The position numbers and the translations under genes are program-made. This document shows positions 6,388 through 24,230 of a stretch of 26,472 bases of DNA, in pieces. This DNA is from a virus. The notes beneath the pieces are model-generated. The model was not told where the DNA came from and ran no database searches. It saw nothing but the letters and a program-made list of their open reading frames with translations. The DNA is taken from the IMG/VR virus record IMGVR_UViG_3300010885_062306, positions 1-26,472 of that record. One strand, written 5' to 3'. Within the stretch, counting starts at the first letter, position 1. Every line of letters starts with the position of its first letter.

Positions 6388-9042
6388 ATGAGTTACGTAG
6401 ACGCATTATTGGATCGTCAGAAAGAACGCATCCACATCGTAGAGAGGGTTGATGGCAAGAGAATCTATAAAGAATACCCTGTTGTTTATACCTTCTATTA
6501 TGCTGATCCTCGTGGCAAGTGGCGTAGTATTTTTGATACTCCCGTTAGCCGCATTAGCACTCGCAGCAGTAAAGAGTTTCGCAAAGAACTAGCTGTACAC
6601 AACAACAAAGAAATCTTCGAGAGCGACATCAATCCCATCTTCCGTTGTTTGGAAGACAACTACATCGATAAAGATGCACCCGAACTAAACATCGCATTTT
6701 TCGATATCGAGACCGACTTTGATAACAAGCGTGGATACAGCACACCATCCGATCCTTTTACCAAAGTCACAGCCATAACAGTATATCTCAACTGGATGAA
6801 TCAGCTGATCACTCTGGCGTTGCCGCCAGAAAGCATGAGCATGGATCAGGCTAATGAAATTAGTGCCAAATTCGACAACACATTCATGTTCGACAATGAA
6901 GCTGATCTGTTGTTGACATTCCTGGATCTGATCGAAGATGCAGACATCCTGTCAGGTTGGAACTCAGGCGGATTTGATATTCCCTACATGGTCAATCGTG
7001 TGGCCAGAGTGTTGAGTAAAGATGACACTCGTAGATTTTGTCTGTGGAACCAGTTTCCCAAAGAGAGGATATTTGAAAAATATGGAGCGGATCAACTTAC
7101 TTTTGATCTGGTTGGCCGGGTTCATATGGATTATATGGAACTGTATCGTAAGTATACTTACGAAGAGCGGCACAGTTACAGCCTTGATGCTATCGGCGAG
7201 TATGAACTGAACGAACGCAAGACAGCCTACGAAGGCAGCCTGGACCAACTATACAATCAGGATTTTGAGACATTCATCACATACTCCAGACAGGACGTGG
7301 CACTGCTGGACAAGCTGGATACCAAACTCAAATTCATCGATCTAGCCAACGAACTGGCACACGCCAACACTGTGCTACTGCAAACTACCATGGGCGCAGT
7401 GGCAGTGACAGAACAGGCCATCATCAACGAAGCACATCGTCGTGGCATGGTGGTGCCCAATCGCAAAAGCAAGACAGACACAAGTGAAACACAAGTAGCT
7501 GGTGCTTATGTGGCCTATCCTAAGAAGGGTCTGCACAAATGGATCGGCGCTATCGATATCAACAGTTTGTATCCGTCAGCTATTAGAGCACTGAACATGG
7601 GTCCAGAGACTGTGATAGGTCAGCTGAGACCTCATATGACAGATACATACATCGCTGACAAGATTGCCAAAGGCAGCAGCATGGCATCAGCATGGGAAGG
7701 ACTGTTCGGCAGTCTGGAATATGAAGCTGTGATGCGACAGGATCCTGGTGCAGAGATTGTCATCGACTGGGAAAACGGTGAATCGGAAGTGTTCAGTGCC
7801 AAGCAGATATACAACTTGCTGTTCAACACCAACAAGCCCTGGGCCATCAGTGCTAATGGTACTATCTTTAATTTGGAAAAGCAGGGCGTGATTCCTGGCT
7901 TGCTGGAACGCTGGTATGCTGAACGTGAGGAAATGCAGGCTAAGATGCGAGCCTGTACTGATGCCAAAGAGCGAGCCTTCTGGGATAAACGACAGCTGGT
8001 TAAAAAAATTAACTTGAACAGTCTGTATGGTGCTATCCTCAACGGTGGATGCAGATTCTTTGATCAACGTATCGGACAGAGCACCACACTGTGCGGCAGA
8101 GCCATCGCCAAACACATGGATGCCACTGTGAACCAGATGATCACAGGCGACTATGATCATGTGGGCAAAGCTATCATCTATGGTGATACTGACTCGGTGT
8201 ATTTTTCAGCTTGGCCTATCGTGGCAGCAGATGTACAGCGCGGCATGGAATGGGACAAAGATATCTGTGTGCAACTGTATGATCAGATCAGCGATCAGGT
8301 AAACGACACATGGCCGGATTTCATGTACAAGGCGTTCCATACTACACCAGAGCTGGGCGCCATCATCAAAGGCGGCCGTGAACTGGTGGCAAGTTCAGGA
8401 TTGTTTATTACCAAGAAGCGTTATGCTGTGCAGATTTATGATCTGGAAGGCAAGCGTCTGGATACAGAAGGCAAAACCGGCAAAGTAAAAGCCATGGGGC
8501 TGGACCTTAAACGCTCAGATACTCCCAAAGTAGTACAGGACTTCCTCAGCGATATCCTGAATCAGGTGTTGAATGGTGCAAGCCGTGAACAGATTGTTGC
8601 TGCTATCAGAGAGTTCAAACAGGTGTTTAAACAGCGTCCAGCTTGGGAAAAAGGCACACCCAAACGTGTGAACAAGCTGACACACTATGGTGATCTGGAA
8701 AAGAAACAAGGCCGAGCCAACATGCCTGGGCATGTACGAGCTGCCATCAATTGGAACTACATGCGTAAGATGCATGGTGACAATCGCAGTATCGAGATCA
8801 CTGATGGTATGAAAACCATCGTGTGCAAGCTGAAAAACAATCCCCTGGGACTGACCAGCATCGGTTATCCCACAGACGAAAGCCGTATTCCGCAATGGTT
8901 TAAAGAAATGCCATTCGACAATGGCAGCATGGAAGATACTATCGTCACACAGAAAGTGGAAAACCTGCTGGGCGTGTTGGAATGGAATCTGGAACACAGT
9001 ACCAATATCACTAATACATTCAGCAAGTTCTTTGAGGTGTAA
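6388..9042 (+). CDS. 43: DNA polymerase, family B, T4 gp43 type
   Basis: This is the replicative DNA polymerase with 3'-5' proofreading; its 884 residues compare with about 900 for T4 gp43. Exonuclease motifs are present: Exo I FFDIETD (Asp106, Glu108), Exo II NSGGFDIPYM (about residue 193) and Exo III YSRQDVALLD (about 299-308). Polymerase motifs follow: A DINSLYPSAI (about 390-399), B KKINLNSLYGA (about 540-550) and C YGDTDSVYF (about 598-606) with both catalytic aspartates. The C-terminus is NTFSKFFEV, a PIP-box-like spacing suited to binding a sliding clamp, as the C-terminal tails of T4/RB69 polymerases do. AAGGAG at 6377-6382 precedes ATG 6388. The same FxKFFEV peptide recurs in the DpdA-like enzyme at 10678. 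Confidence 0.97.
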   Translation: MSYVDALLDRQKERIHIVERVDGKRIYKEYPVVYTFYYADPRGKWRSIFDTPVSRISTRSSKEFRKELAVHNNKEIFESDINPIFRCLEDNYIDKDAPELNIAFFDIETDFDNKRGYSTPSDPFTKVTAITVYLNWMNQLITLALPPESMSMDQANEISAKFDNTFMFDNEADLLLTFLDLIEDADILSGWNSGGFDIPYMVNRVARVLSKDDTRRFCLWNQFPKERIFEKYGADQLTFDLVGRVHMDYMELYRKYTYEERHSYSLDAIGEYELNERKTAYEGSLDQLYNQDFETFITYSRQDVALLDKLDTKLKFIDLANELAHANTVLLQTTMGAVAVTEQAIINEAHRRGMVVPNRKSKTDTSETQVAGAYVAYPKKGLHKWIGAIDINSLYPSAIRALNMGPETVIGQLRPHMTDTYIADKIAKGSSMASAWEGLFGSLEYEAVMRQDPGAEIVIDWENGESEVFSAKQIYNLLFNTNKPWAISANGTIFNLEKQGVIPGLLERWYAEREEMQAKMRACTDAKERAFWDKRQLVKKINLNSLYGAILNGGCRFFDQRIGQSTTLCGRAIAKHMDATVNQMITGDYDHVGKAIIYGDTDSVYFSAWPIVAADVQRGMEWDKDICVQLYDQISDQVNDTWPDFMYKAFHTTPELGAIIKGGRELVASSGLFITKKRYAVQIYDLEGKRLDTEGKTGKVKAMGLDLKRSDTPKVVQDFLSDILNQVLNGASREQIVAAIREFKQVFKQRPAWEKGTPKRVNKLTHYGDLEKKQGRANMPGHVRAAINWNYMRKMHGDNRSIEITDGMKTIVCKLKNNPLGLTSIGYPTDESRIPQWFKEMPFDNGSMEDTIVTQKVENLLGVLEWNLEHSTNITNTFSKFFEV

Positions 9043-9043
9043 C

Positions 9044-9898
9044 ATGGGTATGGAAACTGTTGACCTACAAAAAATGTACAATCAGATCCAGGAAGTCCAG
9101 GATCTGTTTAACATCACGGCTGCTAACAGTGAACAATACCATCATGTGACCATATTGATCAATCAGCTCAAACTGTATTTTGATCAGCATCTGGACAATC
9201 ACAAGGAAATATTGTATTCACACAGCAAACAGATGACCGAAAACTTGTACAAACAGGATCTGGAATTACGTAGAAAGTTTGTACAGAGCAATCGGCTGGA
9301 TCAATATGACGTGGACAGATTTACTGGGTTGGTCACAGCCAACAGCAGTTTTGCTCTGCCCACATTGGAGTTGTTTCCTGGCACAGGGCAACTGTTGCCA
9401 GCGATGGTACATGGCGAGCCGCTGTATCTGGTTGACCGTTATATAGAGATATGTAATGAAGCAGCGGCAGTGTTGAACAACGAGTACTATGCTGATCGCA
9501 GACTGAGAAAATATGCTGTGAAGGATTATGATCTCAGCGCACTACCACAAAATGCCATTGCTGTGGCTTATTGCTTTAACGAGTTCTTCTATGCTGACAC
9601 GGATTACATTCGTAATTGGTGTGACAGCATTTATAAAGTACTGATGCCTGGTGGACGTTTCGTGTTCAACTTCATGCCAGAAGATGAACTATGGGCTATC
9701 GAAGCATGTCAAAAAATGGACTTCAGCATCATCGATTATCGTGCCTTGCTACGGTATCTCACCAACACAGGCTGGCAAGTGGAAACATGCGACAAGCATC
9801 AGTTTCATGGCAGCTACATCAGCATCATCAAACCTGGTGCCATTGCAGACAGATTAAAACTTACTGGCAGCAGTGCAGAAATTATTGATATTCGTTGA
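9044..9898 (+). CDS. Class I SAM-dependent methyltransferase-like protein
   Basis: ATG 9044 follows the polymerase stop by one base, with GAGG at 9034-9037; an in-frame start further upstream would lie inside the polymerase gene. The 284-residue protein starts with a helical region (about 1-95). A Rossmann-type methyltransferase core follows: motif I LELFPGTGQ with the Gly-rich SAM loop, an acidic LVDRY at the next strand, and VLMPGGRFVFNF as the strand typical of small-molecule or protein methyltransferases. No DNA-methyltransferase catalytic motif ([DN]PP[YFW] or the Pro-Cys loop) is visible, so DNA methylation is not supported. The substrate is unknown. Its place between polymerase and clamp suggests co-expression with replication genes. 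Confidence 0.65.
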   Translation: MGMETVDLQKMYNQIQEVQDLFNITAANSEQYHHVTILINQLKLYFDQHLDNHKEILYSHSKQMTENLYKQDLELRRKFVQSNRLDQYDVDRFTGLVTANSSFALPTLELFPGTGQLLPAMVHGEPLYLVDRYIEICNEAAAVLNNEYYADRRLRKYAVKDYDLSALPQNAIAVAYCFNEFFYADTDYIRNWCDSIYKVLMPGGRFVFNFMPEDELWAIEACQKMDFSIIDYRALLRYLTNTGWQVETCDKHQFHGSYISIIKPGAIADRLKLTGSSAEIIDIR

Positions 9899-9913
9899 AT
9901 TAACCTATATACT
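9885..9913 (+). promoter_or_regulatory. Sigma70-like promoter for the clamp-like gene
   Basis: TTGATA (9885-9890) and TATACT (9908-9913) are spaced by 17 bases. The start codon at 9934 would leave a leader of about 14 bases that includes AAAGG (9921-9925). Confidence 0.4.
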
Positions 9914-9933
9914 AAAACAGAAAGGTAAGAAAC

Positions 9934-10674
9934 ATGAAAGATTTTCTAATTGATATCGTGTCACATACACTGCCGCTGGGCGTGTTAGATCTGATCAAAG
10001 TGACAGGAGATGACAAGAGCACTGTGTTGGACAGTATCAGTACTGACCAACAGAATAATAATGTTATTTTTAAAGCCACATTCAATACTCCTAATCCAGC
10101 ATTTGCTGGCGTATTTGGTATGCCCAACATCAGCAAACTGCATACAATCTTGAATATTCCCGAATATAAAGAAAATGCTGATATCACTATCAAGCAAAAG
10201 ACCAAAGACAACATCAGTGTTCCTGGCAGCTTCCATTTTGAAAATGGTGCAAAAGATTTCCAGAACGAATATCGTTTGATGGACGCCAACTTGGTCAACA
10301 GTCGTATTCCAGCTACCAAGTTCATGGGTGCCAACTGGCATGTGACACTGGAACCCACTGTGGCCAGCATCATGCGTTTGAAATTCCAGGCACAGAGCAA
10401 CAGCGATGAAAAATATTTTATTGCCAAAACTGAGAATGGCAATCTCAAGTTTTATTTTGGTAACCACAGCACACATGCTGGTAACTTTGTGTTCCAGGGC
10501 GGTGTGACTGGTGCACTGAGCAATGGCTGGGAATGGCCAGTGGCTATTGTGCAGGCTATTTTGGGTCTGGATGGCGATAAGACTATTAAGTTCAGCGATG
10601 ACGGTATGGCACAGATTGTCGTAGACTCAGGACTGATCACTTATGAATACCTTATTCCAGGACATACGAAGTAA
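9934..10674 (+). CDS. Probable sliding clamp (gp45-like processivity factor)
   Basis: The 246-residue protein (T4 gp45 is 228) has no catalytic motif and reads as repeated beta-strands with helices, as expected for a clamp. Clamp-like pieces are FGMPNISKLHTILNIPEY near residues 65-85 and the C-terminal ...TIKFSDDGMAQIVVDSGLITYEYLIPGH. The latter resembles the last strands of phage clamps (strand, acidic turn, strand, Y.Y.LP). It sits two genes after the polymerase, with its own promoter. A ring that tethers the polymerase to DNA would fit the PIP-like tails in the polymerase and the DpdA-like protein. The assignment is by pattern and position; a structure prediction should show two or three clamp folds. 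Confidence 0.55.
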   Translation: MKDFLIDIVSHTLPLGVLDLIKVTGDDKSTVLDSISTDQQNNNVIFKATFNTPNPAFAGVFGMPNISKLHTILNIPEYKENADITIKQKTKDNISVPGSFHFENGAKDFQNEYRLMDANLVNSRIPATKFMGANWHVTLEPTVASIMRLKFQAQSNSDEKYFIAKTENGNLKFYFGNHSTHAGNFVFQGGVTGALSNGWEWPVAIVQAILGLDGDKTIKFSDDGMAQIVVDSGLITYEYLIPGHTK

Positions 10675-10677
10675 ACT

Positions 10678-12222
10678 ATGAAAAAGCAAGTGGATCTAAA
10701 AACCAATCAGGAAGACTATGCCTTGTTTCTACCGGCGTTGAGTGGTTTTTATTCCACTTACGTGGGCAGACAACGCTTTGCAGAGCATGTGCCTGCAGAG
10801 CGTATCCCTGCTGCACTGGGTGGAATGGAAGGACTCAACTTTCTCAACAGCAAAGAAGGTGTCTTCCATTACCCCTGGTGTCTGTATAGCGCAGGACATG
10901 CCAACTTGGACATTGGGTCTAATCCCAAAGAAGATATGGTGCGTACTCGTGAGGAAGGCAGTTTTATCCTGGGCGACTCCGGCGGTTTCCAGATAGCCAA
11001 AGGCGTCTGGGAAGGTGACTGGCGAGCAGGATCAGGTTGTGACAAAGCACAAAAGAAACGTGTGGATGTTCTCAACTGGATGGAAGAGTACATGGACTAT
11101 GGCATGGGCCTGGATATTCCCGGCTGGGTAGGACGTACTCCACGTGGTCGTGAAGCCACAAAGATCACCACATATCAGGAAGCGGTGGATGCCAGCAAGT
11201 ATAACTTTGAATACTGGATGCGCCACCGCAAACACAAGTGCAAATTCCTAACTGTTCTACAGGGTGATAATCACACACAAGCTGATGAATGGTATGCTGA
11301 GATGAAAAAATACTCAGACCCTAAACAGTTTCCAGATGATCATTTCAATGGCTGGGCCATGGGATCACAAAACAAATGCGATCCGCATCTGGTTCTCAAA
11401 CGTCTGGTCACACTAATTTATGATGGACTTCTTGAGTCTGGCAAACAGGATTGGGTGCATTATCTGGGTACCAGCAAGCTGGAATGGGCCATGATGTTCA
11501 CAGATATCCAACGTGCTATCCGCAAGTATCATAATCCCACACTGACCATCAGCTTCGACTGTGCAAGTCCATTCCTTGCCACAGCCAATGGGCAAGTATA
11601 TCACGAAAACCGTCTAACTGATCGTGGCAAATGGATGTACAAAATGAGCAAGTGTGTGGACGACAAGAAGTATGCCACAGACCCCAGGAACTTCCGTGAT
11701 GCTGTTATCCAGGACGGATTGTTCACAGACTTTATCAAGAGCCCCATCATCGATGCCTGTGGTATCAGCGACATCTGCCACTACAAGCCCGGCGATCTCA
11801 ACAAGATCGGTAAGGAAGGCCGCACCAGCTGGGATAGCTTCAGCTATGCACTGCTGATGGGACATAACATCTTCGCTCATATCCGTGCAGTACAGGATGG
11901 CAATGCTCGTTATGATTTCGGTGTTGTTCCGGCCAGTCTGGTGCAGGAGAAGTTCGAACAGAAGTTCTTCCGTGATGTGGTGGACGGTATCTTCAGTGCT
12001 GGCAGCTATGGCAAAGCCATGGAGTATGTGGAAGAACACAACAAGTGGTACATGGACATCGTGGGCAGCAGTGCCAACGGCTTCCTGGGTAAAAAAGCTG
12101 TGAACAGCAGTACCGCTTTCGGCAAGTTTTTCGAAGTGGAAGAGTTTGTTCCAGACACTGCCAGAGATGACAGCGGAATGAACGAAGCCAATCTGGATAA
12201 ACTGGAAGAACTAATTGATTGA
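10678..12222 (+). CDS. dpdA: DpdA-type DNA guanine transglycosylase (TGT superfamily)
   Basis: DpdA enzymes are relatives of tRNA-guanine transglycosylase that exchange guanine in DNA for a 7-deazaguanine. This 514-residue protein shows the TGT barrel landmarks: LGDSGGFQ with Asp100, GLDIPGW with Asp146, FLTVLQGDN (about 190-198), GWAMGSQ (about 225-231), HYLGTSK (261-267) and ISFDCASP with Asp294. The CxCxxC zinc site of bacterial TGT is absent, as I would expect for a DNA-acting relative. FolE, QueD and QueE genes in the same window would supply the precursor. Residues 483-487 (KFFEV, within AFGKFFEVEEF) repeat the polymerase C-terminal peptide. The gene starts 3 bases after the clamp-like gene. 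Which guanines are replaced, and with which derivative, cannot be read here. Confidence 0.85.
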   Translation: MKKQVDLKTNQEDYALFLPALSGFYSTYVGRQRFAEHVPAERIPAALGGMEGLNFLNSKEGVFHYPWCLYSAGHANLDIGSNPKEDMVRTREEGSFILGDSGGFQIAKGVWEGDWRAGSGCDKAQKKRVDVLNWMEEYMDYGMGLDIPGWVGRTPRGREATKITTYQEAVDASKYNFEYWMRHRKHKCKFLTVLQGDNHTQADEWYAEMKKYSDPKQFPDDHFNGWAMGSQNKCDPHLVLKRLVTLIYDGLLESGKQDWVHYLGTSKLEWAMMFTDIQRAIRKYHNPTLTISFDCASPFLATANGQVYHENRLTDRGKWMYKMSKCVDDKKYATDPRNFRDAVIQDGLFTDFIKSPIIDACGISDICHYKPGDLNKIGKEGRTSWDSFSYALLMGHNIFAHIRAVQDGNARYDFGVVPASLVQEKFEQKFFRDVVDGIFSAGSYGKAMEYVEEHNKWYMDIVGSSANGFLGKKAVNSSTAFGKFFEVEEFVPDTARDDSGMNEANLDKLEELID

Positions 12223-14706: not shown

Positions 14707-15776
14707 TCAACAACATCTACATCGTACCCATCGAACCTATCGATCAGCGTTATACCAGGCAATGGTATGATAATATACCTGATATCATAAACAACATCAT
14801 TGAACGTTGGGAGATCGATTATCAGGTCATAACCATCGATGGCGAGCAGCCCAAGACTGGCACCACGACCGGTGCCTTTCTGGATTTTGCGGTAACCAAC
14901 CAGTACAAAGCCAGCCAGACACAGCGTATCGCAGAACTGTTTACTGCTGGCAAAGTACTGCCAGGTGACAAGTTTTTAATCACAGATGCTTGGAACTTTG
15001 CCATCACTGCTATCAGATACATGAGCGATTTGTTGGATATTCCAGTGGAGATACATGGGATCTGGCATGCCGGAGCATATGACCCCACTGACATCTTGGG
15101 CATGAAGATGCAGAAGCCCTGGCCCTGGCGACAGGAAGCTGCCTGGTTCTATGCCTGCGATTACAATTATTATGCCACGGATTTTCACAGGCAGTTGTTT
15201 TTAACAAATCTGGGTATCGACCCCAGCGGTTGGCACAAGGCTGTGCGTTCAGGACAACCACATGACATGATCGTAGACGAGCTGAGGTCATATCGTCAGA
15301 GCAAGCGTGAAAAAACTGTGATGTGGCCACATCGTCTCAATGCCGACAAGCAGCCAGAGATCATGCGTGATGTTGCCAAGCATATGTCGGTGATTGTCAC
15401 GCAGGAACAAGACTGGAGCAAGCAGGAATATTATCAGCAGTTGGGCAAAACCAGTGTGGTGTTCAGTTGCAGCCTGCATGAGAATCTGGGTATCAGTCAG
15501 ATGGAAGGTGTGCTAGCTGGTGCCATACCTGTGGTTCCAGATCGCGCCAGCTACACTGAGATGTATCCTGACATCTTCAAGTATCCCTCTGAGTGGACCA
15601 GCAGTGTAGACAACTATTACAAACACAAGGATCGTATGATTGGGTTGATTGCTGATCGTATGGAAAATTACAATTATTATGCAGATGCACTCAAGGAATG
15701 TGAAAACAATTTGATTGCCAACTATTTAAATGCTAATATAATGATAGGTAAACTCATAGGAAAAAACAGTGACTGA
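14703..15776 (+). CDS. GT-B fold glycosyltransferase
   Basis: I choose GTG 14703, overlapping the previous TGA (GTGA), rather than an in-frame start about 100 bases upstream. The 357-residue protein shows the GT4-like donor-binding end: VFSCSLHENLGISQMEGVLA, then GAIPVVPDRASYTEMYP (about residues 252-288). Before it come WPHRLNADKQPEIM and an Asp-Ala-Trp segment (about 95-105). There is no membrane segment. Its donor is probably made by the preceding nucleotidyltransferase-cupin. It overlaps the FolE gene by 8 bases. The acceptor could be a virion protein, a surface glycan or a modified base; nothing in the sequence decides. It does not resemble the T4 alpha- or beta-glucosyltransferases by eye. 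Confidence 0.7.
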   Translation: MINNIYIVPIEPIDQRYTRQWYDNIPDIINNIIERWEIDYQVITIDGEQPKTGTTTGAFLDFAVTNQYKASQTQRIAELFTAGKVLPGDKFLITDAWNFAITAIRYMSDLLDIPVEIHGIWHAGAYDPTDILGMKMQKPWPWRQEAAWFYACDYNYYATDFHRQLFLTNLGIDPSGWHKAVRSGQPHDMIVDELRSYRQSKREKTVMWPHRLNADKQPEIMRDVAKHMSVIVTQEQDWSKQEYYQQLGKTSVVFSCSLHENLGISQMEGVLAGAIPVVPDRASYTEMYPDIFKYPSEWTSSVDNYYKHKDRMIGLIADRMENYNYYADALKECENNLIANYLNANIMIGKLIGKNSD

Positions 15777-16458
15777 AGTAAGCAAAAAGATTAAACAACG
15801 TCTGGAAGCTGATGGCAAGCGTTATTGGGCTGGTGACAACATCAGCTCATATATCGAGCCAGGTGAAAAAGAACAGCTGATCGATGAATTGAATGCCCGG
15901 TTCGATGCGGTGCTGGATAGTCTAGTGATCGATCGTGAGAACGATCCCAACAGCCATGATACAGGCAGGCGTCTTGCCAAGATGTATGTGAATGAGCTGA
16001 TGCGAGGTCGCTATTATCCAGCACCGGATGCAACCGCTTTTCCCAATGAGATGGAGGATCGCTATGAAGGAATGTTGGTGGTCAGGAGCGAATTGCGTAG
16101 TGTTTGTAGCCACCATCATCAACCTGTCACTGGTGTTGCTTACATCGGTATTATTGCTGCCGATCGCCTTATCGGTCTTAGCAAGTATACTCGTATTGCT
16201 CAATGGTGCGCTCGTCGTGGAACTCTACAAGAAGAGCTGTGTAATGATATCGCGAAAGAGATCATGAAGACCACTGGCAGCAGTAATGTGGGTGTGTATA
16301 TCCAGGCCACACATGGCTGCTGTGAAAACCGTGGCATCATGGCCAAGAGCAGTTTAACACAGACTACCGTGCTAAAGGGCAGCTTCTTTTCAGATCCTGG
16401 CACAAAGAAGGAATTCTTCGACAACATCAAATTGCAACAGGAGTTTGCTTGCAGATGA
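15769..16458 (+). CDS. folE: GTP cyclohydrolase I
   Basis: FolE converts GTP to 7,8-dihydroneopterin triphosphate, the first step of both folate and 7-deazaguanine synthesis. The 229-residue protein has the family signature: SVCSHHHQP with zinc ligand Cys113 and His116, GLSKYTRIAQWCARR, LQEELCNDIA, then HGCCENRG with the second zinc Cys at 184. Length fits the family (E. coli 222). The start is GTG 15769, overlapping the glycosyltransferase by 8 bases, and it overlaps the following gene by 4 bases (ATGA). Together with QueD- and QueE-type genes downstream it is best read as feeding deazaguanine for DNA modification rather than folate. Confidence 0.95.
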   Translation: MTEVSKKIKQRLEADGKRYWAGDNISSYIEPGEKEQLIDELNARFDAVLDSLVIDRENDPNSHDTGRRLAKMYVNELMRGRYYPAPDATAFPNEMEDRYEGMLVVRSELRSVCSHHHQPVTGVAYIGIIAADRLIGLSKYTRIAQWCARRGTLQEELCNDIAKEIMKTTGSSNVGVYIQATHGCCENRGIMAKSSLTQTTVLKGSFFSDPGTKKEFFDNIKLQQEFACR

Positions 16459-17171: not shown

Positions 17172-17669
17172 ATGCAATCAATCACATACAAATATACCAG
17201 CACCAAGGAATACGTGGATGCGTTTCCCTGCGCCTATCGCCAGTGGCGAGCAGACAGCCATTGCAATCTGATCCATGGCTATGCCTTCAGCATGAAGTTC
17301 TACTTTGGAACAAATGATCTGGATGTGCGTAACTGGGCAGCAGATTATGGTGGTCTCAAAGAGCTCAAGAAGATCCTGGAAGATCAATTTGATCATACAT
17401 TGCTTGTGGCTGAAGACGATCCTGAACTGGCAACATTCAAATTGCTACAGGAAAAACACATGGCCAAGCTGACTATCCTGCCCAAGCTGGGTTGTGAAGG
17501 TCTCGCAGATATGCTGTACAAGTATATCAATACTGTTTATATTCCAGACATGTGGGGTCCAGGTGAAGCAGAACGTTTGTGGTGCTATCGCGTGGAAGTG
17601 CGTGAGACACAGGCCAATATGGCATTCCGCGAAGGTCATCGCGAATGGAACGAGGACTTAAATGCCTAA
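17172..17669 (+). CDS. queD: QueD-like 6-carboxytetrahydropterin synthase family protein
   Basis: QueD turns dihydroneopterin triphosphate into 6-carboxytetrahydropterin. This 165-residue protein keeps much of the family: catalytic Cys31 and HG of the HGH motif (SHCNLIHGY), ADYGGLKELKK, FDHTLL with Asp74-His75, a GCEGLADM segment in place of PTxE, and VEVRET with Glu145. Two of the three usual zinc histidines are Tyr: FPCAY (Tyr22 for the FxAAH His) and HGY (Tyr37 for the second HGH His). I recall similar FxCA.RQWRA...C.L.HGY proteins in other phages, so this is probably a phage subfamily rather than a broken gene. Its exact reaction may differ from that of E. coli QueD. It overlaps the next small gene by 8 bases. 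Confidence 0.8.
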   Translation: MQSITYKYTSTKEYVDAFPCAYRQWRADSHCNLIHGYAFSMKFYFGTNDLDVRNWAADYGGLKELKKILEDQFDHTLLVAEDDPELATFKLLQEKHMAKLTILPKLGCEGLADMLYKYINTVYIPDMWGPGEAERLWCYRVEVRETQANMAFREGHREWNEDLNA

Positions 17670-17832
17670 TAGCTGGACTGTAGAGCTAGAAGAAGATAAA
17701 GAAACGGGAGAATTGCTTCTCCCGTTTCCACCAGATTTGCTTGCCCAGATGGGCTGGACACCAGGCACTGAATTATGGTGGCAAGACAACGCTGACGGCA
17801 CAGTCAGCATAAGAGAGAAGAAACATGAGTGA
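17662..17832 (+). CDS. Small AbrB/MazE-like phage protein (56 aa)
   Basis: ATG 17662 overlaps the QueD-like stop by 8 bases, and the TGA at 17830-17832 overlaps the FTR1-like start by 8 bases. The product reads W.VELEED.ETGELLLPFP.DLL..MGW.PGTELWW.DN.DGT.SIR, the layout of a swapped-hairpin AbrB/MazE-type domain (E.G.L.LP..LL..LGW..GD.L). Such small proteins are common in phages. DNA binding is known for AbrB relatives but not shown for these. Its codons 14-23 form a perfect 12-bp inverted repeat (17701-17728). Coupling on both sides suggests it helps set expression of the cluster, which is inference. Confidence 0.65.
   Translation: MPNSWTVELEEDKETGELLLPFPPDLLAQMGWTPGTELWWQDNADGTVSIREKKHE
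17701..17728 (+). repeat. Perfect 12-bp hairpin inside the small AbrB-like gene
   Basis: GAAACGGGAGAA (17701-17712), loop TTGC, then TTCTCCCGTTTC (17717-17728). The stem is perfect with a 4-base loop. On the + strand no T-run follows (CCACCAG). On the - strand it would be followed by TTTATCTTCTTC, but no - strand gene uses it. It could slow or protect mRNA between the QueD-like gene and the permease/QueE genes. Confidence 0.7.
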
Positions 17833-18421
17833 TATTTTAAGCACTATACTAGTTGTTTGCAGAGAAGGTTTCGAAAGTGTCCTGCTCACAGCGTTGATTT
17901 TGAAGTTTTTACCAGAAGATCTAAAACCCCAATATTACATAAACTTTGCCATCTGCTGGATTGTCAGTCTAGCACTGGGACTGTATGCTGCCAGTGAGTT
18001 TCACGAATATATGGAACAGTGGGAGCCAGTTATAAACATCGTAACTGGTGTGGTACTGATCTATATCTTTACCACCAGCAAGGCTGTTTACAACCACGCT
18101 CGTGAACACGCTGAGGAAATCACCACAGCTACCTGGATCAGCACACATATCACCATATCGCTGATTGTATTGCGAGAAGCTGCTGAAAGTACCATATTTC
18201 TTGCTGGTAACATCAGCCGCGGCTGGGACAACACCCTAATAGGTCTAGCCATTGGCGGCGTATTATTGGTAGCTTTGTTAAAGTCAGCAAACCAATTGGG
18301 TAAAGCACTAGTAAACAAAATAATCTTCCGTGTGGTTGGATTTAGCTTGCTTTTATTAGGTGCTTATTATATAATAGACGGTATAAACGACATCATTATC
18401 AGGATAGCAGAGTACATTTAA
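17825..18421 (+). CDS. FTR1/OFeT-family iron permease-like membrane protein
   Basis: FTR1-type permeases move iron across the inner membrane. This 198-residue protein has six or seven hydrophobic segments (about 4-28, 38-58, 68-84, 104-128, 136-156, 165-190). It carries both diagnostic REXXE motifs inside membrane helices: REGFE (13-17) and REAAE (117-121, in SLIVLREAAESTIFLAG). The helix after the second motif is Gly-rich, as in the family. It is shorter than usual (about 270-280) and lacks large loops, but both halves are present. It overlaps the upstream gene by 8 bases and shares one base with the QueE start (TAATG). It is therefore integrated in the deazaguanine operon. QueE needs an iron-sulfur cluster, which gives a possible reason; this is inference. 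I know of no well-described phage example. Confidence 0.8.
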   Translation: MSDILSTILVVCREGFESVLLTALILKFLPEDLKPQYYINFAICWIVSLALGLYAASEFHEYMEQWEPVINIVTGVVLIYIFTTSKAVYNHAREHAEEITTATWISTHITISLIVLREAAESTIFLAGNISRGWDNTLIGLAIGGVLLVALLKSANQLGKALVNKIIFRVVGFSLLLLGAYYIIDGINDIIIRIAEYI

Positions 18422-19269
18422 TGTTCGGAAAAAATGAAATAATCGGAAAAAGTTACTTTAATCAAGCTGCTGACGATCAGTTATTTGTCACTAGCATATT
18501 CTATACCCTACAAGGCGAAGGTCCTTATCGTGGTGAGCCAGCAATCTTTGTTAGACTAGCTAAATGCAATCTGGCATGTAGCTTCTGTGACACCTACTTT
18601 GACGGTGGTGACTGGCTGACATTTGATGATGTGTATGATCGCATCATGGAAGCTGCTGTCAAATATTTTGGTGGCGAGGTACCTGGATGGTTTGATCAAA
18701 AGGTAGGATTAGTCATTACTGGTGGTGAGCCTATGCTGCAAAAGAATCTGGGTATATTCCTGGAAAAAGTCAAAAACTTGTTTGCCTGGACCCAGATTGA
18801 AAGCAATGGCACAGTGTGGCAGGATATTCCTGCAGAAACTACACTGGTATGTAGTCCCAAGTGTCTGGAAAAAGATGGCAAACCTGTCAAGTATCTTAAA
18901 CCCAATACAGATGTCATGGAACGTGCAGATTGTCTCAAGTTTGTCATGAACGCAGACCCAGATAGTCCATATAGTGAAATCCCAGATTGGGCACATGAAT
19001 ATGCCAGCGTGGGCAGTGGCAAACAGGTGTTTATCAGTCCCATGAACATCTATAATCGTGAGCCTAAGAACAGTAAGCAGATGCGTAGCACCAAGAACGA
19101 CATCAGCATGGAAGAGCGCAGTGCAGTAGATGAAGTCATCAGCTTCTGGGAAGAAGGTCTATTAAATATGACTGAGAACCAGAAGAACCATGAGTACACC
19201 GCACAGTATTGTGCTCGCAATGGTTTCACTTTAAACTTGCAGATACACTTGTATGCAAGTTTAGCCTAA
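18421..19269 (+). CDS. queE: 7-carboxy-7-deazaguanine synthase (radical SAM)
   Basis: QueE rearranges 6-carboxytetrahydropterin into 7-carboxy-7-deazaguanine with SAM and a [4Fe-4S] cluster. The protein has YTLQGEGPYRGEPAIFVRLA near the start, then the cluster motif CNLACSFC (Cys49, Cys53, Cys56; CX3CX2C) followed by DT. ITGGEPMLQ (about 100-108) and ESNGT (about 122-126) follow, all typical of the family. At 282 residues it is longer than most QueE proteins (about 210-245); the extra length is mainly in the C-terminal third, after VFISPMNIYNREPKN. The start ATG shares its first base with the stop of the iron permease gene. Its product is the likely base, or base precursor, used by the DpdA-like enzyme. 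Confidence 0.92.
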   Translation: MFGKNEIIGKSYFNQAADDQLFVTSIFYTLQGEGPYRGEPAIFVRLAKCNLACSFCDTYFDGGDWLTFDDVYDRIMEAAVKYFGGEVPGWFDQKVGLVITGGEPMLQKNLGIFLEKVKNLFAWTQIESNGTVWQDIPAETTLVCSPKCLEKDGKPVKYLKPNTDVMERADCLKFVMNADPDSPYSEIPDWAHEYASVGSGKQVFISPMNIYNREPKNSKQMRSTKNDISMEERSAVDEVISFWEEGLLNMTENQKNHEYTAQYCARNGFTLNLQIHLYASLA

Positions 19270-19876: not shown

Positions 19877-20320
19877 ATGTCATTTTTCAATTCACTGTTC
19901 GGCTGGGCTAAACCCCAAGATTACAAGATCCCCGAGCAGCCTATGTTTACCACGGTCTCTGTAACCACAGAGACCAAACCCAAGAAACCTCGCAAGCCTC
20001 GTGCTAAGAAAACAGAGCCTGCACCAGAACCTCAAGCAGAAACACCAGTTGCTGCTCCTGAAGTAAAAGTGCTCAAATTGGACTTCGATCCAGCTAACCC
20101 TCGCATGGGTAGCTTGGAATTGGATTGGAACGCTGAGTTTATCGACCTGCTGAAAAAACACGGATACCCAGGCAACAGTGCAGAAGATGTGGTTGATGCC
20201 TGGTTGAACGACATCTGCCGTACTATCATTGCTGGCAATAATCCCGGCAATGTGGCTAATTTTGACAATCGTTATGTGAACAAGCGTAACTTGGGTGATG
20301 GCAAGACAGAAGTCAGTTGA
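19877..20320 (+). CDS. Conserved phage protein with basic Pro-rich linker
   Basis: ATG 19877, with GAGG just upstream, is preferred over an in-frame start inside the previous gene. The 147-residue protein has a short N-terminal part (MSFFNSLFGWAKP). A Lys/Pro/Ala linker follows (about 35-65; PKKPRKPRAKK, then PAPEPQ). The C-terminal domain is MGSLELDWNAEFIDLLKKHG, then GY-type and VVDAWLNDICR segments, a pattern I know from conserved phage proteins. The function is unknown. The linker suggests tethering of the C-terminal domain to something. Confidence 0.55.
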   Translation: MSFFNSLFGWAKPQDYKIPEQPMFTTVSVTTETKPKKPRKPRAKKTEPAPEPQAETPVAAPEVKVLKLDFDPANPRMGSLELDWNAEFIDLLKKHGYPGNSAEDVVDAWLNDICRTIIAGNNPGNVANFDNRYVNKRNLGDGKTEVS

Positions 20321-20350: not shown

Positions 20351-21352
20351 ATGAAATACTTACTCGTAGATACAGCCAATCTGTTTAGTCGTGCGCGGCA
20401 CAGTACCCCTCGTGGTGCTGATACCTGGAGCAAACTGGGTCTAGCCCTGCACATCACTTTCAACGGTATCCTTAAAGCTGACAGGCTACACAAGCCTGAT
20501 CATGTGATCTTCTGTCTGGAAGCTCGCAGTTGGCGCAAGGACCACACGGGCACCTACAAGGCCAATCGCAAGGTTACCCGTGATAAAATGACCACCAAGG
20601 AGGCAGAAGAAGATGAAGAGTTTTGGGCTTGTTTTGATGATCTCAGCAAGTGGCTTGCTGAGCGTACCAATGCTACTGTCATTCGCGTGGAACGAGCTGA
20701 AGCAGACGATCTTATTGCCCGATGGATTGCTCTTCATCCAGAGGATCAGCACACTATCCTTAGCAATGACAGCGACTTTTTGCAGCTATTGGCACCAAAT
20801 GTTGACATCTACAACGGACTGACCAATCAGCTGATCAACTTGAACGGTTACTTCGATGACTGGGGCAAGCCCGTGGTTGATAAAAAAACCAAAGAAACAA
20901 AGACTGTGCCAGATCCTGAATGGTTGCTGTTTGAGAAGTGTATGCGTGGTGACGCCAGCGACAATGTGTTCAGTGCTTATCCTGGTGTGCGTACTAAAGG
21001 CAGTGCTAAGAAGGTGGGCCTGACAGAAGCCTTTGCAGACAAGGACAAGAAAGGCTGGGCTTGGAATAACATGATGTTGCAGAAGTGGACCGACCATGAA
21101 GGCACAGAACATCGTGTACTGGATCGTTATCTGGCCAATCGTGAACTGATCGATCTGACACAACAGCCCACAGAGATCCGCGATCATATCGACAGTCATC
21201 TGCTTGCTATCACACCCAAACAGGCTAACCAAGTAGGGTCGCAACTGATCAAGTTCTGTAGCAAATATGAACTGGTCAAGATGACAGACAATGTCAAATC
21301 GCTGGCTGAGGTACTCAGCAAAAGTCTACCTAAGGAAACAATAGATGCTTAA
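20351..21352 (+). CDS. rnh: 5'-3' exonuclease / flap nuclease (T4 RNase H type)
   Basis: Enzymes of this family remove RNA primers and 5' flaps during lagging-strand synthesis. The 333-residue protein (T4 RNase H is 305) shows the FEN/PIN metal sites in order: LLVDTANLF with Asp7, TYKANRK (68-74) for the helical arch, AEADDLIA with Glu117, Asp119 and Asp120, SNDSDFLQLL with Asp140 and Asp142, and KCMRGDASDNVF..YPGVRTKG (about 199-220), the helix-hairpin-helix metal site. The C-terminal 100 residues are helical and lack known motifs. It overlaps the next gene by 8 bases. It fits with the polymerase and clamp-like genes as part of a T4-type replisome. Confidence 0.93.
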   Translation: MKYLLVDTANLFSRARHSTPRGADTWSKLGLALHITFNGILKADRLHKPDHVIFCLEARSWRKDHTGTYKANRKVTRDKMTTKEAEEDEEFWACFDDLSKWLAERTNATVIRVERAEADDLIARWIALHPEDQHTILSNDSDFLQLLAPNVDIYNGLTNQLINLNGYFDDWGKPVVDKKTKETKTVPDPEWLLFEKCMRGDASDNVFSAYPGVRTKGSAKKVGLTEAFADKDKKGWAWNNMMLQKWTDHEGTEHRVLDRYLANRELIDLTQQPTEIRDHIDSHLLAITPKQANQVGSQLIKFCSKYELVKMTDNVKSLAEVLSKSLPKETIDA

Positions 21353-22733: not shown

Positions 22734-24230
22734 ATGACAGATTGTGTAATTTTAAACGGTTCGTCGATGACAGGACCAACAGCTAAACAGGCCGGCAGTT
22801 ATCGTATCGCCACGCAGTTGCGTGATGCTGATTTCAGCTGCCAGGTTATTGACATAAGCGGTTTTTATGAATATAAATTATTTTTCCATTATATTAAAAA
22901 ATTCATCACAGACAAAACTATTTGGCTTGGTATAAGCAATGTATTTTTGTTTAAAATTTGTGAAGTGAGTTGGCCTATGACAATTCAAAGGCAAGAAAAT
23001 AATATCATTCCCACAGAAGATCAAAAACAAAAATTGAATGATTTTTTTGCTACTTTTACTGCTGATCTTAAAAAAGCATATCCCAATTTAAAATTGTGCT
23101 ATAGTGATGCAGGAAAAAGAATAAGCATAACTCATCACGGTTGGACATGTTTTCAGGGTTTTGTGGACAAAGAGATAATAGATTTTACGCATGACTGTTT
23201 GGCTGATAAAAAATTAAAACTAAACATCTATAAAAAAGAATATCCTGAATTTAATACTAGTAAAATACACTGGTTGCCTCAAGACATTTGTAATAATGAA
23301 AAAGTATTGCCTATCGAAATCAGTCGCGGCTGTATTTTCAAATGTGCTTTTTGTGCTTTTCCGCTCAATGGCAAAAAGAAACTGGATTATATTAAAGATG
23401 GCAACACTCTAAGACAAGAGCTGATATACAACTATGACAATTATGGTATCACGGATTATATCTTTACTGATGACACATTGAATGATAGTGTGGAAAAATT
23501 ATTAGACATTAAAAAAGTATTGGATAGTTTGCCCTTTAGGATCAACTTTGTCAGCTATCTGAGATTGGACCTGATGGTAACTAAACCAGAAATGGCAGAT
23601 ATTTTAGCTGAAATGGGAATGATCAGCGCACACTTTGGAATAGAGACTGCCGACAAACAGGACGGGCTTTTGATTGGCAAAGGAATGGATTTTCAAAGAC
23701 AAATAGACTACCTAAATCAAATAAAACAAACATCATGGAAAAATATCACAACTCGTGCATCTTTTATCATGGGTTTTCCCAATGATAGTTGGGAAAAAAT
23801 CTATAAATTGATAGATTGGATCAAAAGAGAAGATAACCCTATAGATGAAAATCTTCCTATCACGCTGGCTATAGTACACAAAGAATTCCAACATAGTCGT
23901 CATTTATGGTTTAGTAATATAGATATAAATTATGAACAAATGGGATATGAATTTACAGAAAAAGATGGTAAACCAACATGGTACAACCATAAATCAGGAC
24001 TTTATGAAATAGATCTATTTAATTATCAAAAAATTGTTAGTAAAGAAATAATACCTAACAGCAAATATACAGTATTTGATTTAATGGATATGTATAATTT
24101 AGGTATTGACAAACAAGATCTTATGACTATGAATAGACGTCAAATCCAAGAAAAATACGATATTCCAGCGTTAAAAAAACAGATGAGCTTGAATTATTAT
24201 CGTAACCTTATGAAATATAAGGCAAAATAA
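22734..24230 (+). CDS. Radical SAM protein, possibly B12-binding type
   Basis: The 498-residue protein has the radical SAM cluster motif CIFKCAFC (Cys200, Cys204, Cys207; CX3CX2C) preceded by EISRGC. YIFTDDTLN, LRLDLM, then HFGIET and ASFIMGFPN follow, in the usual barrel order. Residues 1-190 include AGSYRIATQLRDADFSCQVI, which resembles the start of the B12-binding domains of B12-dependent radical SAM proteins, but the base-binding DxHxxG motif is not visible. Such enzymes methylate or rearrange unreactive carbons; the substrate here is unknown. The gene is AT-rich and has no Shine-Dalgarno (context ATAATTACCAT before ATG). It looks like a later acquisition. It is not a QueE and not a standard nucleotide-synthesis enzyme. 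Confidence 0.8.
   Translation: MTDCVILNGSSMTGPTAKQAGSYRIATQLRDADFSCQVIDISGFYEYKLFFHYIKKFITDKTIWLGISNVFLFKICEVSWPMTIQRQENNIIPTEDQKQKLNDFFATFTADLKKAYPNLKLCYSDAGKRISITHHGWTCFQGFVDKEIIDFTHDCLADKKLKLNIYKKEYPEFNTSKIHWLPQDICNNEKVLPIEISRGCIFKCAFCAFPLNGKKKLDYIKDGNTLRQELIYNYDNYGITDYIFTDDTLNDSVEKLLDIKKVLDSLPFRINFVSYLRLDLMVTKPEMADILAEMGMISAHFGIETADKQDGLLIGKGMDFQRQIDYLNQIKQTSWKNITTRASFIMGFPNDSWEKIYKLIDWIKREDNPIDENLPITLAIVHKEFQHSRHLWFSNIDINYEQMGYEFTEKDGKPTWYNHKSGLYEIDLFNYQKIVSKEIIPNSKYTVFDLMDMYNLGIDKQDLMTMNRRQIQEKYDIPALKKQMSLNYYRNLMKYKAK

Follow-up and report, generated by a model that had tools for sequence, protein, structure and literature searches.

The viral DNA analysed here (IMG/VR record IMGVR_UViG_3300010885_062306, positions 1 to 26,472; this whole stretch of 26,472 nucleotides is called the window) encodes a T4 gp43-like family B DNA polymerase, a PCNA/gp45-type sliding clamp and a DpdA-like base-exchange enzyme, and it raises the question of why the polymerase and the enzyme carry almost the same short peptide. 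The explanation favoured here, with a probability of about 0.8, is that the phage sliding clamp has the DpdA-like enzyme among its clients, bound through a polymerase-like tail peptide, and that the enzyme modifies newly copied DNA. The tails of the two proteins very probably bind one shared clamp pocket, and a coupling of DNA modification to replication is fairly likely. The coordinates of the features are given in Table 1.

The polymerase ends in TNTFSKFFEV, directly followed by the stop codon TAA at 9040-9042, and the DpdA-like enzyme carries STAFGKFFEV before an acidic tail. The first-pass annotation had pointed to this common peptide, and both translations were confirmed; its peptide positions were correct except for the start of its span, 9013, which is one codon late, the polymerase peptide beginning at 9010. 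Over the last seven residues the two sites are identical at six, a match to the polymerase C-terminal 7-mer that was reached in 3 of 20,000 shuffles of the DpdA-like protein, so that its chance is about 1.5e-4. As had also been claimed, the peptide is not a copied DNA repeat, since the codons are unlike at several shared residues (TTC AGC AAG TTC TTT GAG GTG in the polymerase, TTC GGC AAG TTT TTC GAA GTG in the DpdA-like gene). The 75 polymerase tails compared, 37 of them distinct, mostly read TTFNxLF[ED][WF], and a matrix built from the polymerase tails of other phages gave this site the highest score within the DpdA-like protein (5.9; the runner-up scored 2.0). The window by itself is insufficient to settle the question of the shared peptide, and it is the relatives that settle it.

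In the AlphaFold model of the DpdA-like enzyme, residues 465-514 all have a predicted local distance difference test (pLDDT) score below 50, and the peptide falls inside this stretch, after the tRNA-guanine transglycosylase (TGT) domain. Burial of the peptide in the folded core, which the first-pass annotation had named as fatal to its idea, is not what the model predicts. Relatives were taken as the best 80 of 94 viral loci (50-88% identity) and, with a broader query, as the best 80 of 597 more distant ones. The first set gave 78 complete DpdA-like C-termini including the window, 61 of them distinct; in 42 of these no more than about three residues follow the motif, and the other 19 are extended. 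Among the 42, residue 481 is F or Y in 41, residues 484 (L or M) and 485 (F or W) are kept in all, and residues 478, 480, 482 and 483 are variable. Relatives have the peptide either at the very C-terminus or in front of an acidic tail; the DpdA-like protein thus carries a conserved hydrophobic and acidic peptide at a flexible end. Of 146 phage loci in which both the polymerase and the DpdA C-terminus are complete, 129 have a recognisable DpdA motif. Eleven of the remaining 17 have at their end an LW or FW with E or D after it (LPDNLWDF, DLWENN, NFWEIST), which may replace the motif. In one extended group the inner motif has decayed (to QFGNHFD or NYQKLTEE) and the protein closes with LWDF, LWEN or FWEI, which looks as if the motif had moved to the new protein end.

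Within the window's clade the motif is followed by a 27-residue acidic tail with an LDKLEE-like ending; L001, L004 and the window itself show the motif clearly. Acidic LxxLEE-like tails were observed after the motif in many DpdA-like proteins, including the L163-L242 tails (RDDSGLDEKKLDKLEE, DDDELRALEE), and such a tail may be a second docking site. In Vibrio phage 2.275.O, a gene between clamp and dpdA (L123:6678-7157) encodes a protein ending ENLWGFKPK, like the LWDF ends of the extended DpdA proteins.

The 146 loci hold 100 distinct motif pairs, in which L, F or M stands at motif position 4, directly ahead of the invariant F. The polymerase/DpdA pairs at this position were L/L in 115 loci, F/F in 9, M/M in 2, and L/F, L/I and M/L in one each; the 17 motif-less loci were excluded from the tree counts, leaving 129 loci, and the motif position was set by eye in 11 loci (L188, L070, L071, L062, L063, L059, L195, L180, L190, L005 and L226). 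On the tree of DpdA catalytic bodies (251 branches), six polymerase and seven DpdA changes were found at position 4, and five of them fell on the same branch and to the same residue, namely in the window, in L206, in the ancestor of L015 and L027 (to M), in the L165-L189 clade and as a reversal in L166. Five coincidences were reached in 0 of 200,000 random placements. On the tree of polymerase bodies (128 tips, one row having been dropped), four of five polymerase changes coincided, again with 0 of 200,000. Covariation of the DpdA peptide with the polymerase tail, which the first-pass annotation had proposed as a check and whose absence it had named as refuting, is borne out by these counts. 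An independent-pair test for F went the same way in 4 of 4 cases, too few for a sign test (p 0.125). As an internal control, 412 variable DpdA columns were scanned over the same 129 loci, with MAFFT columns without by-eye calls and with reference branches from the hand-checked calls; the motif column alone reached five coincidences, and the second column was the motif's own position 487, with four coincidences among 41 changes.

The protein encoded directly before the DpdA-like gene is predicted to have the two-domain clamp fold. Its AlphaFold model matched PCNA with a best Foldseek E of 6e-10 and a VIA-align Z of 18.4 over 226 residues at 3.4 Å, so the earlier suggestion of a clamp-like gene at this place is backed by the modelled fold. 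By sequence, the best Pfam match reached only E 5.9 and no similarity to known gp45 or PCNA was detected (the best matches of a profile search against PDB were unrelated, and hhalign with nt-1 gp45 gave E 0.23); in two phage records, distant relatives bear the annotation sliding clamp or PCNA. In 155 of 160 viral loci a clamp gene is found just upstream of dpdA and on its strand, and three of the remaining five are at contig edges. A methyltransferase-like gene (9044-9898, +; weak Pfam match, E 0.007) lies between polymerase and clamp in the window and is also present in some close relatives.

Residues of this clamp shift with the two tails. At clamp residue 225, all 117 L-type loci have A (114 loci) or V (3), and all nine F-type loci have L (8) or M (the window alone). 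Ten of the 12 F- or M-type loci carry F at residue 135, compared with 2 of 117 L-type ones. When clamp columns were ranked against branch-wise rates, the top ones were W135 (p ~0.0016), S221, M225 and T128; these positions belong to the connector-like loop (128-135) or lie near the turn that precedes the second-last strand. Residue 225 presumably lies opposite Pro234 of PCNA, as placed by hand from a match of the last two strands and from PCNA numbering. In PCNA, the leucine of the PCNA-interacting peptide (PIP) contacts Pro234, and its aromatic residue contacts Leu126, Ile128 and Tyr250 under the connector loop, as described in the consulted part of PMC10087552. The DpdA-like peptide is found to coevolve with the polymerase tail and with clamp residues, and the joint changes of the two tails and the clamp may be read as a rare record, written in sequence alone, of one docking pocket retuned together with two clients. 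Since tail and clamp changed together in evolution, the enzyme probably rides on the clamp and modifies DNA during copying.

The motif is rare elsewhere. A strict C-terminal form was found in 10 of 862 called open reading frames (ORFs) of seven long contigs, and nine of the ten are polymerase or DpdA. As the strict pattern was chosen after the data had been seen, a separate matrix was built from polymerase tails alone, and in four contigs it ranked the DpdA C-terminus 3rd of 138, 2nd of 159, 3rd of 175 and 2nd of 97 ORFs; in the three remaining long contigs the DpdA motif is internal, decayed or outside the last 16 residues.

The sole other ORF with the strict motif (G001:C1:299-970, in L082) encodes 223 amino acids ending REIYMTLWEEFN and has no PHROG match. 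Within the window, a small gene at 19877-20320 (+), just upstream of an RNase H-like exonuclease gene (20351-21352), encodes a protein that starts MSFFNSLFGW, with an N-terminal score of 19 in the polymerase-tail matrix against 11.8 for the window polymerase. This type of start is kept in five close relatives (L131-L135) and absent in L136 and in the PA5oct and Atu_ph07 homologues. With L at its motif position 4 it departs from the F of the window; the product is possibly a further clamp client.

The identity of the DpdA-like enzyme came from its fold. The model has a TGT-type TIM barrel and matched the TGT 2ash_B with a VIA-align Z of 20.1 over 299 residues at 4.3 Å (model residues 14-421), the best Foldseek E to a TGT being 2e-6. 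D100-SGGFQ, D146, Q195-G196 and D294 are invariant across 52 DpdA-like sequences; judged by motif, the DSGGFQ, the second Asp, the QG and the Asp of the second half may correspond to the TGT catalytic residues. No match was found in Pfam at E <= 10 or in NCBIfam at E <= 5, PHROGs and PDB sequence searches were empty, and hhalign detected no sequence relation to 9g DpdA (E 0.33) or nt-1 DpdA2 (E 0.13), hence the name DpdA-like only. Genes of preQ0 synthesis (FolE, QueD-like and QueE-like) were found downstream of the dpdA-like gene, and QueC was not found among the proteins scanned in the window, which is a fragment. The enzyme probably swaps guanine bases in DNA, with DNA as the presumed substrate.

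Table 1. Features of the window connected with the polymerase, the clamp, the DpdA-like enzyme and preQ0 synthesis
Feature	Coordinates	Strand	Evidence
T4 gp43-like family B DNA polymerase, 884 amino acids	6388..9042	+	PHROG 262 E 9.6e-196; PF00136/PF03104; RB69 polymerase PDB chains, best E 2.2e-62
Polymerase C-terminal TNTFSKFFEV, residues 875-884, putative clamp-binding peptide	9010..9039	+	Translation
PCNA/gp45-type sliding clamp, 246 amino acids	9934..10674	+	AlphaFold mean pLDDT 91.5; PCNA fold; phrog_12062, unknown function
Clamp residues 128-135, interdomain-connector-like loop ending in W135	10315..10338	+	Model places it after helix 118-124 and before strand 135-139; covaries with both tails
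Clamp residue M225	10606..10608	+	A/V with L tails, L/M with F tails
DpdA-like base-exchange enzyme, TGT fold, 514 amino acids	10678..12222	+	AlphaFold model; TGT match; invariant residues
STAFGKFFEV, DpdA-like residues 478-487, putative clamp-binding peptide	12109..12138	+	Translation; outside folded core; covariation
Acidic tail after the peptide, ending NLDKLEELID	12139..12219	+	LxxLEE-like letters also in relatives
GTP cyclohydrolase I (FolE), first step of preQ0 synthesis	15769..16458	+	PF01227 E 1.8e-37
QueD-like 6-carboxytetrahydropterin synthase	17172..17669	+	PF01242 E 4e-15; TIGR03367 E 9e-8, below curated cut-off
QueE-like radical SAM enzyme	18421..19269	+	NCBIfam QueE models E ~1e-18, below curated cut-offs

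Further genes of the window encode an FTR1-like permease (17825-18421; Pfam E 3e-6), a radical SAM protein nearest to PhpK-type models (22734-24230; E 6e-23, below cut-off) and an AAA ATPase, MoxR-like in weak matches, that runs off the contig end (25330-26472, +; AAA Pfam E 8e-7).

The mechanism that we propose is that a peptide of the form F/L-x-x-[L/F/M]-F-[D/E]-hydrophobic in the disordered C-terminal tail of DpdA would dock into the PCNA/gp45-type clamp, presumably in the pocket that the replicative polymerase uses for its own C-terminal peptide. The clamp remaining on fresh DNA copies would keep the DpdA-like enzyme there, where it would exchange guanine for the 7-deazaguanine supplied by the phage FolE, QueD and QueE. 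Recruitment of the base-exchange enzyme to the clamp, the central idea of the first-pass annotation, is supported as far as sequence can carry it by the peptide outside the core, the covariation and the neighbour with a PCNA fold.

Several observations weigh against this mechanism. In a matrix scan over every position of every protein, the DpdA site ranked only 7th among the 37 genes of the window. Because residues 463-477 (GTRxN-GKK) are conserved as well, a shallow alignment may be part of the reason for the low pLDDT. The 17 of 146 loci mentioned above have no recognisable motif at the expected place, six of them showing no replacement motif by eye, and the motif is weak or degraded in the close window relatives L002, L003, L005 and L006. 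The DpdA change to F in L175 is discordant (the polymerase reads LF), the DpdA I in L178 and the polymerase M in L163 are unmatched, and the L166 reversal is uncertain and seen on the DpdA tree only, because L166 is not nested on the polymerase tree. For the clamp, no single column was significant after correction for 227 columns (best p as given above), and the window clamp retains W135 despite its F-type tails.

Other explanations were weighed against clamp-coupled modification. The clamp could be a mere tether that raises the local concentration of the enzyme on any loaded DNA, with no coupling to replication, a reading that we hold to be rather unlikely. It draws on T4 alpha-glucosyltransferase (alpha-GT), which binds gp45 (Sommer 2004, cited in PMC13216743); a 2026 paper confirmed the interaction by pull-down, beta-GT not co-purifying, and according to its consulted passages the alpha/beta glucosylation ratio is nevertheless set mostly by regulatory strength, that is by expression rather than by clamp binding (PMC13216743). 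That the tail is conserved and covaries across deeply diverged phages argues that the binding matters to the phage, and tethering and fork coupling are not distinguished thereby. A regulatory brake, in which the DpdA peptide would compete with the polymerase for the clamp or dislodge it from there instead of recruiting the enzyme, has in its favour that both tails apparently share one pocket per clamp subunit. A PCNA-type trimer, however, offers three client sites and lets clients share the ring, and as no separate evidence for a brake was found we consider it improbable.

It is similarly improbable, if anything slightly more so, that the shared peptide is a coincidence of hydrophobic ends or that it has a separate role in folding, dimerisation or stability in each protein. 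Short hydrophobic and acidic ends do arise by chance, and the rank of the DpdA site within the window fits this, but against it stand changes to the same residue on the same branches of two unrelated proteins with matching clamp changes, a strict motif that ends only one other ORF of 862, and a peptide outside the folded core. Gene conversion homogenising the polymerase and dpdA tails, which lie about 3 kilobases apart in the window and change together, is the least credible of these explanations: the codons of shared residues are unlike within loci, and flanking residues are mostly unshared (in the window, L206, L186 and others). It was rejected on these codon differences and because no longer tracts of identical DNA were seen around the motif in the 10 loci inspected.

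In more distant phages the pairing of the two ends was also observed, with polymerase NNTDLFDW and DpdA NNNDLFGW in Vibrio phage 2.275.O and polymerase HFDSLFGW and DpdA FNSLFDV in Pseudomonas phage PA5oct; queries with either of these enzymes alone found no viral loci. In L213 no clamp or polymerase was found nearby and there is no DpdA motif. The 12 bacterial relatives (L148-L157, L159 and L160; 25-31% identity) show no tail motif, the best weak match being YQSLFDQ in L155, and no polymerase or clamp match was found on their loci. In L124 (Sinorhizobium phage Phosso) the PCNA-type clamp is a long way from the DpdA-like gene, which has DnaE-like, primase and DnaB genes nearby, and the DpdA-like proteins of L124, L127 and L128 end VEGLF and GGIFS, more like beta-clamp ends.

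The unrelated DpdA of phage 9g, one of a group of phages that can be grown in laboratory E. coli, is encoded in the gene order polymerase, processivity clamp, dpdA, folE, queD. For this 9g-type DpdA (DpdA1), 236 phage records were matched and the tails of 16 besides 9g were examined, together with 5 of a separate set of 7 viral loci. Exact LF or FF ends were found in 11 of 13 relatives (QELF twice, MELF three times, QGLF, QRLF twice, PVLF, PGLF and QGFF), and the other two, close to 9g, end LQDLFDE; in comparison contigs, 5 of 1,027 ORFs end in [LMF]F, at least one of them a 9g-type DpdA. Eight further records gave LF or FF ends in V2.117 (QPGLF), Sulfitobacter M39 (TQGFF), Dp-1 (QRRLF) and R5C (QVSLF), the phage DnaN of Dp-1 lying a few genes beyond dpdA, and no such end in Hilltopfarm, Arbiter, Finch and phiSM, where no clamp is annotated in the stretches examined around dpdA. 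The natural beta-clamp motif is given in the consulted part of PMC11139829 as Q-aliphatic-x-[L/M]-[F/L]; it is short, linear and often C-terminal, and it resembles the DpdA1 ends QVSLF, QMELF, QELF and QRLF. QVSLF and QMELF fit it, the other 9g-type ends fit in part only, many lacking the Q or the aliphatic residue, and the window enzyme differs in having a gp43-like motif and a PCNA-type clamp. Unrelated DpdA1 enzymes thus appear to bear beta-clamp-like tails beside beta-type clamps, which may be a second case for clamp clients.

Clamp-bound DNA modification is known in kind. T4 alpha-GT is likewise a phage enzyme that modifies DNA after synthesis and is bound to the phage sliding clamp, but it is a glycosyltransferase acting on hydroxymethylcytosine and not a base exchanger, and the consulted passages of PMC13216743 name no peptide motif or covariation. 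The C-terminal clamp peptides of gp43, gp55 and gp33 are interchangeable between clients, as stated in the part of PMC2988020 used here, and in T4 and RB69 they too are hydrophobic and acidic and enter a hydrophobic clamp pocket (PMC2988020, PMC3012046, both in part); those clients serve polymerisation and late transcription, whereas the present one is a base exchanger whose peptide is often followed by an acidic tail. The 9g DpdA and nt-1 DpdA2 are TGT-related, are encoded with FolE, QueD and QueE and insert preQ0 into phage DNA, according to the consulted part of PMC6884629. The 9g DpdA also has polymerase and clamp genes alongside and differs in its beta-clamp-like end, and nt-1 DpdA2 ends ...AEYPDFKS, with no recognisable motif. 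No earlier report of a link between DpdA and a clamp was found in the literature searched, within which a base exchanger with such an evolutionary record is apparently new.

The best reading of these results is that phage base exchangers are sliding-clamp clients and probably couple modification to replication. If this is true, a clamp-borne exchanger would be a specific answer to how base-exchange phages mark their DNA before restriction enzymes meet it, and the same clamp-client idea would extend to 9g-like phages.

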